Assembly: GCA_026770585.1 (NCBI GenBank)
Contig: MU646318.1
Coordinates: 945,400 to 972,011, forward strand
Direction: 5' to 3'
DNA: 26,612 nt
Origin: Baffinella frigidus
Taxonomy: Eukaryota > Cryptophyceae > Cryptomonadales > Baffinellaceae
The notes beneath the pieces are model-generated. The model ran no database searches and had not been told where the DNA came from. It worked only from the letters and a program-made list of their open reading frames with translations. The translations under genes were made by a program, and so were the position numbers. Shown here piece after piece: positions 7,314 through 26,117 of the stretch (positions within the stretch are counted from its first letter, which is position 1; every line of letters starts with the position of its first letter).

Positions 7314-8515
7314 TTACGGGATGAGCTTGTCGCCTTCTGTCTTGGCCTCCTCCTCCTTGTCGGCGTCGTCGAGGATTTCCTGTTTTCAGGTTTTAGGGTT
7401 TAGGGTTTGGGCTCAGGTTTTAGGGTTCAGGGGTTCCGGGCTCAAGGTTGAGGATTTCGTGCTTTACGGTTCACTCCTCCTCCGTGTCGGCGTCGTCGAG
7501 GATTTCCTGTTTGAGACGTGGGGGTTCAGGGTTCAGGGATTTCCTGCTTTGGGGATTTCCGAGGATGTTCGGTTGAGGGTTCTGGGTTTATGGTTCAATT
7601 TTCAGGGGTTAGGGTTCAGGGTTCAGGGTTCAGGGTTCAGGGTTCAGGGTTTAGGGTTTAGGTCTCCTCCTCCTAGGGGTTTGGGCGCAGGGTTCAGGGC
7701 GCAGGGCGCAGGGCGCGGGGCGCAGGGCGCAGGGCGCAGGGGCTCAGGGTGGAGGGTGGAGGGTGGAGGGTGGAGGGTGGAGGGTGGAGGGTGGAGGGTG
7801 GAGGGTGGGGGGCGGGGGGGTTCCTGTGCGACGTGCGATGCATACCAGACGACGAGAACCATGGCGACGATTCCCATCACGGTTCCGATGATGTGATATT
7901 GGTTCAGCCCCTGCACAGAGAGAGAATCACCTTTGTGGTATAGAGGTGTTGGTGGGTCTGGCCATGGAACCGTACAGCTCACTTTTGTGCAGGCGGGGTT
8001 GCGCGTAAAGTCAATAATCAACTTAAAGACTTCTCCACTCTCGATCCTCCATGGCGCCCGAAGTTCACTCGGACGACCTCTGTTTCCGAACCATAGCGAC
8101 GATTCCCATCACGGTTCCGATGATGTGGTATTGGTTCAGCCCCTGCACAGAGAGAGAATCAACTTTACATGCCAACGTTAGATGCCGATAGTTCCAGCCA
8201 AAATTCCCCGTCCGGTGAAAATCACGAGGTTTAGGGTTTCGCGTCTAAGCAGATTCAGGATCGTGTTTGGCACCGTGCGTGGAGCCCTTACCCCGTTCTT
8301 GGAGCCCTTTGTCAACTACCCCGTTCTTGGAGCCGTTTGTCAACTTTTGGCCGAGATGGCCCCAGGCTCTTCAAAAAACCCTCAAGAAATTGACTTTTGA
8401 AATACCCCCCCTCGAGCCTTGCGTGGGTCAACCGGGGGAGGCGCACCCCCGGTTCTGACGTTTCGAGGGGTGAGAGGGCGAGAGGGCGAGAGGGCGAGAG
8501 GGCGAGAGAGAGAGA

Positions 8516-8564
<49 letters not shown>

Positions 8565-25741: not shown

Positions 25742-25794
<53 letters not shown>

Positions 25795-26117
25795 GGTTTC
25801 GGTTTTGGGGTTTAGGGTTGAGCGTTGAGGGTTGAGGGTTTAGAAGGACGCACCAGAGCGTGTCCCAGGGTTTCATGGTTCAGAGTTCAGGTTCCAGGGT
25901 GTGGCTTTGGGGGTTTCGGGTTTCCGGGCAAGCACCGGAGCGTGCCCAAGCCTTAGCGCGAACTTGTGGCCGAATGCAAATGTTCGGGGTTGAGGGTTTG
26001 GGGTGTATGGTTTGGGGTGTAGGGTTTGCAGTGTAGGGTTTGGGGGGGTACCGGTGCGTGTCCCAGCCTTAGCGCGAACTTGTGGCCGAACGCCACCCAC
26101 TCCTTTTCGATGAGCAC
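22069..26117 (-). CDS. Myotubularin-family phosphoinositide phosphatase, C-terminal part, five exons
   Basis: Minus-strand exons 26117-26052, 25279-25232, 24324-24226, 23417-23274 and 22227-22069 join in phase 0. Myotubularins remove the 3-phosphate of PI3P and PI(3,5)P2 on endosomal membranes. In order: VLIEKEWVAFGHKFALRLGH, the conserved segment soon after the catalytic CX5R loop; SPIFLQFLDAVWQILQ; HAFEFKEELLLALADACLER then RYGTFAFDSP, matching the family's AFEFNE...LL..L.D...FGTF block; KTRSVWPALDA; and IWAPLYLRYADPPEAESCEA, matching the LW-x-x-YY-x-R-W end of the domain. The catalytic loop and PH-GRAM domain must lie right of the window. The last exon has an open frame to TAG at 22069-22071 but could end earlier at a GT, so the C-terminus is uncertain. 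Exons 1-3 of this set sit among multiple partial copies of themselves. Confidence 0.75.
22471..22502. other. 12-bp hairpin
   Basis: CACGTATCTCAA and its complement around an 8-nt loop, in the last intron of the myotubularin gene. An unrelated 33-bp perfect tandem duplication (unit beginning GCACAATGCGTAGCATGTGC) lies at 22954-23019. Confidence 0.65.
22579..22871. mobile_element. Family G element, copy 3, split by a nested insertion
   Basis: The outer parts (CCAGCTCTGCCTCACTCGGG to GGGATCGAGCCC, and GCCCGGGCTCGCGAAATTGG to GAGACAGTGCTAGG) match the copies at 5331 and 12719. The 150-bp hairpin at 22673-22822 lies between them. Confidence 0.85.
22673..22822. mobile_element. Young foldback element nested in family G
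   Basis: Two 68-nt arms (22673-22740 and 22755-22822) match at 67 of 68 positions around a 14-nt loop. The termini are TTATCTCAGAAAACG. GCCC is present on both sides (22669-22672 and 22823-22826) but only once in the other family G copies, giving a 4-bp target duplication. Confidence 0.9.
23104..23244. mobile_element. AT-rich foldback element inserted in a repeat L copy
   Basis: TCATATGGAAACACTTTAAT and the right end TTAAAAGTGTTTCCACATTG are inverted relatives. GATC flanks both ends (23100-23103 and 23245-23248). Joining the flanks restores the repeat L consensus found elsewhere, with a single GATC. Confidence 0.8.
23424..23596 (+). repeat. GA microsatellite before a myotubularin exon
   Basis: A (GA)n run of about 170 bp with scattered CG and GGGA interruptions. 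On the coding strand it is (CT)n and ends directly at the CGCCCAG acceptor of exon 23417-23274. Confidence 0.9.
23690..24550 (-). repeat. Array of copies of the myotubularin FEFKEELLLAL exon
   Basis: Besides the intact exon (24324-24226) there are copies at about 24478-24545 (HAFEFKEELLLALADACLEH, donor end lost), 24085-24140 (TDACLERRYGTFVFDSP with GTAAAC donor), 23870-23975 (FEVKEELLLALTDACLEHCF, ending FDSP with GTGCCC) and about 23695-23725 (GSGFEFKD). Several share a leader, CAAAAGTCAATTWCTGG, on the plus strand. Confidence 0.85.
24360..24470 (+). repeat. Small inverted-repeat element related to the VTT exon 5 spacers
   Basis: GAAATAACGGAAAGTTGG...GTACAAAA...TTATTGTTATTTC. A sister copy lies at about 20002-20080 (GGAAACAACG...GTTATTGTTTCGG), and a shortened version separates the exon 5 copies at 11717-12190. 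Confidence 0.6.
24572..24676. mobile_element. Family B MITE, copy 3
   Basis: 105 bp from TA-TCCCTTAAGTGGCGAG to CTCGCCACTTAAGGGA-TA. The terminal repeats are perfect over 16 bp or more. Confidence 0.88.
24780..25165 (-). repeat. Partial copies of the myotubularin LDAVWQILQ exon
   Basis: Minus-strand fragments at about 24790-24825 (LLDAVWQILQ with GTCTCT donor) and 25128-25165 (ADAVWQILK with GTCTCC donor) echo the exon 25279-25232. Between them lie a family E remnant (about 24825-24937) and a 40-bp palindrome with one mismatched pair at 24958-24997. Confidence 0.8.
25162..25224 (+). repeat. CT microsatellite
   Basis: (CT)n with CG interruptions between an exon echo and the donor side of the intact exon at 25232. 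Confidence 0.9.

Follow-up and report, generated by a model that had tools for sequence, protein, structure and literature searches.

Why should internal exons of three unrelated genes lie beside partial copies of themselves? The question is raised by a stretch of 26,612 nucleotides (nt) of the cryptophyte Baffinella frigidus (contig MU646318.1, positions 945,400 to 972,011; hereafter the window), part of a 382-Mb genome, which holds a gene with a VTT domain, an NTF2 gene and a partial myotubularin (MTM) gene. An earlier note, made from the sequence alone, had described these copies, here called echoes, and had suggested that exon edges were repeatedly copied into introns nearby, perhaps during break repair with telomere-like filler, or a reservoir of alternative exons. 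The analysis reported here favors, with moderate confidence, the explanation that the echoes are products of insertion at widely staggered breaks with long flanking duplication, together with tandem duplication, and that they were filtered by splicing.

The presence of exon-edge copies well above chance was confirmed by self-comparison of the window, in which simple repeats were masked and matches were counted within 2.5 kb. The number of local direct matches was 58, compared to 0 in 20 Markov-resampled windows, which yielded two inverted matches in total. As the earlier note had claimed, copies lie beside VTT exons 3 to 10 (8 of the 10 exons, none for exons 1 and 2) and beside three MTM exons, with three copies of exon A, two of exon B and, for exon C, one acceptor-side copy as well as donor-side copies matching 29/30 and 21/30. 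NTF2 exon 3 was indeed found to have copies on both sides, but the reported count of eight 5' and two 3' copies was corrected to seven on the acceptor side and three on the donor side at a cut-off of at least 22/30. No local direct duplicate was present for 5 of the 17 exons (VTT 1 and 2; NTF2 1, 2 and 4). The copies lie close to their exons, and intron sequence is included in many of them, in agreement with the earlier statement that neither whole-gene duplication nor processed pseudogenes are involved. An assembly artefact is the least probable of the explanations considered here: the evidence does come from a single assembly, but the exon-edge blocks differ by 3–22% from their exon region with codon-position structure, like structures occur on several other contigs, and the contig itself is 1.48 Mb long.

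The position of the copies was determined by scanning 30 exon edges against the whole window, on both strands, with probes of 30 nt (24 from the exon, 6 from the intron) at the same cut-off. A total of 28 junction-spanning copies was found, on 14 of the 30 edges. All 14 acceptor-side copies (6 edges) were located upstream of the intact exon and all 14 donor-side copies (8 edges) downstream, an agreement of 14/14 edges with a probability of 2^-14 under the assumption of independent edges that could take either side. No inverted copy was found at this cut-off for the 30 edges, nor was an inverted local copy found for any of 422 exon 30-mers or 188 edge 30-mers. Hits at 20–21/30, which were left uncounted, consisted of two local hits on the expected side, three distant hits on the same strand and four inverted hits. 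When a block over an acceptor is duplicated directly the spare copy lies upstream, and when a block over a donor is duplicated it lies downstream, and therefore direct duplication, unlike pasting, produces the side rule. The rule, which held in 28 of 28 copies, contradicts random pasting of exon edges.

A local direct duplicate was found for 152 of 422 exon 30-mers compared to 181 of 1370 unique intron 30-mers, from which dispersed, hairpin, simple and echo sequence had been excluded. These findings show that duplication is not exon-specific and that introns are duplicated too, which rules out a process acting on exons only. The enrichment in exons probably arises because selection holds the exon constant, so that its copies are recognisable longer than intron duplicates. 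Repeated copying of exon edges as a specific process, as proposed earlier, is thus not supported: the side rule and the lack of inverted copies at 22/30 or above indicate direct duplication over the junction, and introns were duplicated too.

The sequence between exon and nearest copy was telomere-like at VTT exon 10 (88 nt) and MTM exon A (72 nt), consisted of GA/CT arrays at VTT exon 8 (97 nt) and MTM exon B (68 nt), and contained dispersed elements at VTT exon 7 (116 nt), VTT exon 5 (62 nt; tandem) and MTM exon C (128 nt). Break repair with filler, the better half of the earlier interpretation, is supported by direct copies that enclose such sequences. It is possible, though on the doubtful side, that all copies are instead plain tandem duplications, produced by replication slippage or unequal exchange and promoted by hairpins and G-rich repeats, and that the filler came later by array expansion or transposition. 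Because tandem duplication requires the gap to resemble the outer flank of the copy, the two were compared in the 15 nearest pairs. They were alike in six pairs (VTT exons 3 and 5; NTF2 in three pairs, one head to tail; MTM exon C donor side), as tandem duplication would have it, unrelated in seven (VTT exon 4, exon 7 twice, exons 8 and 9; MTM exons A and B), which argues against it, and ambiguous in two (VTT exon 10; MTM exon C acceptor side). The claim that flanking intron sequence differs therefore holds clearly for seven pairs and fails for the six in which the flank was duplicated too. Among the seven pairs without flank homology, the gap holds recognisable insert-type sequence in four (a GA or CT array, telomere-like repeats or a dispersed element) and the element E9F in a fifth; the remaining two are the donor side of VTT exon 7, with a gap of unrecognised sequence, and VTT exon 4, with a mixed gap of 1.2 kb. 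Tandem duplication is further favored by arrays in the window with units of 35, 203 and 23 nt, and by the proportion of the window occupied by hairpin elements (16%) and simple repeats (14%). The copies of VTT exon 5 form a tandem cluster that includes sequence related to an element at 19977–20106.

Insertion is indicated by E9F, a dispersed element whose copy in VTT, 153 nt long, lies inside the longer intron 7911–8570. Six copies were aligned; they share one end, presumably the 3' end, and three are shorter at the other end. Flanking direct duplications of 79, 53, 42, 36 and 35 nt with 91–96% identity were found in five of the six copies. E9F adjoins these duplications within approximately 10 nt, the accuracy with which its ends were placed, and this too argues against tandem duplication throughout. 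In a random-site control, 5 of 150 positions had at least 30 nt at 85% identity or more, and all five lay on E9F or on a known direct repeat. Target-site duplications of retroposons are usually 5–20 nt. E9F is similar to retroposons of the short interspersed nuclear element type in having one common and one variable end and, mostly, flanking duplications, but differs from them in that its duplications measure 35–79 nt, that no A tail was seen in the six-copy alignment and that no Rfam match was obtained at E≤1. The dispersed copies, their one constant end and the flanking duplications are as expected for target-primed reverse transcription. In the sequence L009, E9F is located at the donor of a coding-looking exon, which by eye we take to be ankyrin-like.

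Similar structures were found elsewhere in the genome. Twenty stretches of 10 kb were sampled, of which 13 consisted entirely of N and one almost entirely, with about 45 kb readable in seven. Structures of the form direct repeat, gap, direct repeat were collected when the gap was 40–260 nt and the arms had no second place in the available sequences, which is a weak filter. This yielded 23 non-overlapping structures; in 16 the gap was unrelated to the outer flanks, against plain tandem duplication, and 7 were tandem-like, in its favor. Among filtered pairs from sample and window with a gap of at least 40 nt, 74 were direct compared to 6 inverted. The window contributes 29 of the 74, and the pairs, which overlap, are not independent. 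Without the filter there were 86 direct pairs with a gap of at least 40 nt and 21 inverted pairs with any gap. Coding rhythm in the sampled duplications, a weak test, gave a sum of 130 compared to 119 expected in 32 pairs, and Pfam searches with ten chosen open frames of the sampled stretches returned one weak LRR match and one TPR protein. On another contig, L024:190-490 holds a direct duplication, coding-looking by eye, that encloses a short element and a telomere-like array. L032:4921-5682 comprises an LRR-like stretch (weak Pfam match) and, after it, a second, closely similar copy that keeps the frame.

Under the explanation favored here, echoes would be the remains of local direct duplications across splice junctions, of two types. 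In the first, a break with a wide stagger would receive a short filler (retroposon-like, telomere-like, a GA/CT array or a dispersed element), and its overhangs, once filled in, would become direct duplications of tens of nt on both sides (27–91 nt here). The second would be plain tandem duplication with units of approximately 35–250 nt. As long as the intact exon is spliced and the outer copy ignored, the event would be tolerated and the intron would grow. What the sequence itself shows is the direct orientation, the side rule, filler between some of the copies, one filler family (six copies) that is dispersed and has long flanking duplications, and like structures in some other genome regions; the staggered breaks, their fill-in and the enzymes responsible are inferred.

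Several observations weigh against this explanation. Apart from E9F, copies of the filler families are mostly without long flanking duplications, a point that also speaks for tandem duplication, and as a result the data do not establish one way of insertion common to all fillers. The idea that all fillers are one family with long duplications was rejected: a dispersed 152-nt family at 9070–9221, which has precise ends and more than 30 further genome copies among the matches listed, had no flanking duplication above 19 nt in any of 23 copies, and the other copies of the filler family at VTT exon 7 had none. The E9F case itself comprises six copies with ends placed within approximately 10 nt, and the 42-nt duplication, in L010, was missed by a stricter rerun. 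All 23 sampled structures were confined to three of the seven readable stretches. Two copies (VTT exon 6 and the inner copy of exon 8) lie downstream without an acceptor and were excluded from the side rule by eye; 1 and 2 of their 6 intron bases match. Many blocks reach just 2–24 nt into the intron, which is not obviously expected from random junction-spanning events. Finally, the ratio of synonymous to nonsynonymous change, at 3.7 (bootstrap 95% interval 2.1–7.0; 1.4% of bootstraps at or below 2), is higher than the value of approximately 2 expected if drift acts on the copy and the exon undergoes silent change alone.

This ratio was obtained from 17 blocks (14 edges and three inner blocks), in which 36 synonymous and 28 nonsynonymous differences were counted between exon and copy, corresponding to 0.187 and 0.050 per site, respectively. 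Fast silent change of the exon, a diverged-allele source or past constraint on the copies are possible reasons for the synonymous excess. Under the second of these, the copies would derive from a diverged allele or haplotype by unequal recombination, for which the exons alone were similar enough; this would explain why the intron part is short and the differences are silent. Such an origin is unlikely. It would suit the synonymous excess, the short intronic part of many blocks and the different intron flanks in 7 of 15 pairs, but a genome search with a 2001-base query revealed no second haplotype among the 40 of 3911 candidates that were scored, and neither the tandem families with duplicated introns nor E9F need it.

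The fate of the copies was assessed with the VTT product. The protein assembled from the window matched T484DRAFT_1926716 of Baffinella frigidus, an entry shared by NCBI, JGI and MMETSP, at 99% over the whole query. With this entry, termed P0001, as reference, the ten-exon splice was found to be identical in 268 of 268 residues, followed by TAA. P0001, the one protein available for this comparison and for VTT only, contains none of the copies. This makes it very unlikely that selection maintains the copies as functional exons, whether alternative or regulatory (decoy splice sites), a reading for which the synonymous excess and the AG or GT kept in 26 of 28 junction copies might be cited; AG was lost in NTF2 copies 18636 and 19247, most copies are one-sided, and a stop is reached within 50 codons in 11 of 14 acceptor-side copies. 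The same evidence from P0001, one-sidedness and stops goes against the reservoir of alternative exons suggested in the earlier note. In a protein of Rhodomonas salina, a stretch is inserted precisely where VTT exons 6 and 7 meet, and the protein terminates at the boundary of exons 7 and 8. The inserted stretch may represent an intron that was retained at this position, and from the match of the junctions at least these two VTT intron positions seem older than the echoes. Viral contigs, scanned with P0001, yielded six pattern matches and no relative. The genes, echoes and enclosed elements are listed in Table 1.

Table 1. Genes, exon-edge copies and enclosed elements in the window
Feature	Coordinates	Strand	Remarks
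VTT-domain gene, ten exons	7317..16279	-	Exons 16148-16279, 15999-16031, 14582-14676, 13671-13734, 11615-11716, 11301-11345, 9705-9818, 8571-8639, 7824-7910, 7317-7379
Telomere-like filler between VTT exon 10 and its copy	7386..7473	-	Outer flank likewise telomere-like
VTT exon 10 acceptor-side copy	7474..7512	-	33 exon and 6 intron nt, 97%
E9F, dispersed 153-nt retroposon-like element	7935..8087	-	Fills gap from exon 9 block to copy; best genome match spans 7931-8087
VTT exon 9 acceptor-side copy	8088..8166	-	55 exon and 24 intron nt, 96%
VTT exon 8 inner copy, without acceptor	8248..8278	-	
VTT exon 8 donor-side copy	8434..8460	-	GA-rich array within 8461-8557 separates copy from exon
VTT exon 7 donor-side copy	9580..9612	-	
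VTT exon 7 acceptor-side copy	9944..9988	-	Partial dispersed element 9841-9945 separates copy from exon
VTT exon 6 copy, without acceptor	10813..10853	-	
VTT exon 5 acceptor-side copies (four)	11789..12194	-	11789-11853, 11899-11928, 12010-12061; 12165-12194 weak (21/30)
VTT exon 4 donor-side copy, four codons missing	12423..12478	-	
VTT exon 4 inner copy	13292..13329	-	
VTT exon 3 donor-side copies (two)	14198..14448	-	203-nt tandem unit; nearer copy 95%
NTF2 gene	16486..20773	+	Exons 16486-16794, 17002-17148, 19323-19406, 20729-20773; ends from splice sites and homologues
NTF2 exon 3 acceptor-side copies (seven)	18636..19311	+	18636, 18671, 18953, 19018, 19064, 19247, 19282; in part 35-nt tandem array
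NTF2 exon 3 donor-side copies (three)	19495..19795	+	19495-19552, 19629-19658, 19737-19795
MTM, partial gene	24226..26117	-	Exons A 26052-26117, B 25232-25279, C 24226-24324
MTM exon A donor-side copies (three)	25553..25977	-	25934-25977, 25663-25714, 25553-25596; amid telomere-like arrays
MTM exon B donor-side copies (two)	24790..25155	-	25123-25155, 24790-24824; nearer copy separated from exon by CT array
MTM exon C acceptor-side copy	24459..24549	-	Dispersed element between copy and exon
MTM exon C donor-side copies (two)	23875..24147	-	24064-24147 (29/30); 23875-23961 (21/30 at edge)
Possible fourth gene, donor edge ~4716	4699..5215	+	Donor-side copies downstream near 4978 and 5178; exon model by eye only

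Pfam matches were obtained for the VTT gene (VTT_dom, 7.3e-15), NTF2 (PF02136, 1.1e-32) and the myotubularin fragment (PF06602, 9.3e-24). Eight of the nine VTT introns start with GT; the last one (at 7823-7824) starts with GA and would be a GA-AG intron if P0001 is right. No full-length Baffinella NTF2 protein was present among the matches listed in the NTF2 search. A 260-codon open frame at 493-1275 had no Pfam match, and an Rfam scan of the window at gathering scores returned nothing. A palindromic family of approximately 120 nt is present in seven window copies (1545-1666, 2272-2397, 6759-6884, 6978-7098, 20882-21002, 21490-21611 and 21742-21862), and 29 hairpin intervals were counted in the window, some being the two arms of one element. 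The telomere-like arrays are nearly all in a single orientation, CCCTAAA-like on the sense strand, with 1467 compared to 14 bases in VTT (7317-16279) and 934 compared to 15 bases in myotubularin (23871-26612). Telomere-like sequence makes up at least 90% of the 40 nt preceding 5 of 15 acceptors, as if it served as 3' splice-site tracts.

Excerpts of earlier reports describe several related systems. Small tandem duplications arise when CST-Pol alpha fills in 3' overhangs (PMC8355091), and natural insertions in rice (Vaughn and Bennetzen 2014, as described in the review PMC7407515) involve staggered-break repair and filler. The Baffinella structures share with these the direct orientation, a length of tens to hundreds of nt, the presence or absence of inserted DNA and the local origin, but in Baffinella the same genes show repeated hits on splice junctions, and telomere-like filler is frequent. 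Mammalian interstitial telomeric sequences were inserted at breaks, with site duplication in 4.6% of rodent and 16% of primate loci (PMC2246262). They are alike in their telomeric filler and occasional site duplication, whereas the Baffinella arrays are mostly degenerate TTTAGGG-like, are intronic and occupy the sequence preceding 5 of 15 acceptors. Intron gain via tandem duplication or double-strand break repair (PMC2891723, PMC3296678, PMC2809761) likewise leaves direct repeats near splice sites from insertion or duplication, and direct repeats at intron borders were reported to be 4–30 bp long with a mean of 11.4 (PMC11782384). In contrast, in Baffinella existing introns grow and the repeats are 27–91 nt. 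Introners form whole introns with direct repeats of 3–5 nt (PMC7789003); in both cases protist introns contain direct repeats and short elements that are repeated or form hairpins, but E9F in VTT is only one part of a longer intron. Template switching at transposons has also been described (PMC8277862), and the excerpts of PMC12220804 and PMC11914136 are without bearing on exon copies. A literature search largely without subscription journals found no paper on Baffinella introns or on such exon copies.

Insertion with target duplications of 30–90 nt, which was seen in one small element family and is suggested by the sampled structures, could be the new part of these findings. A bolder and rather improbable extension is that a machinery makes cuts 30–90 nt apart in the two strands and copies short RNAs, among them telomerase-type TTTAGGG repeats and E9F, into the gap. 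Long target duplications would then arise wherever this machinery is active, introns would be the tolerated landing zone and their growth the fossil record, and each echo would keep an older state of its exon. The lengthening of introns can usually not be read, since the traces on both sides decay. In Baffinella one side of the duplication is a selected exon, so that the event is readable, can be oriented and perhaps dated. If the pattern is genome-wide, many such events would be available, and they could be used to test directly whether introns are built by break repair, telomerase or a retroposon.

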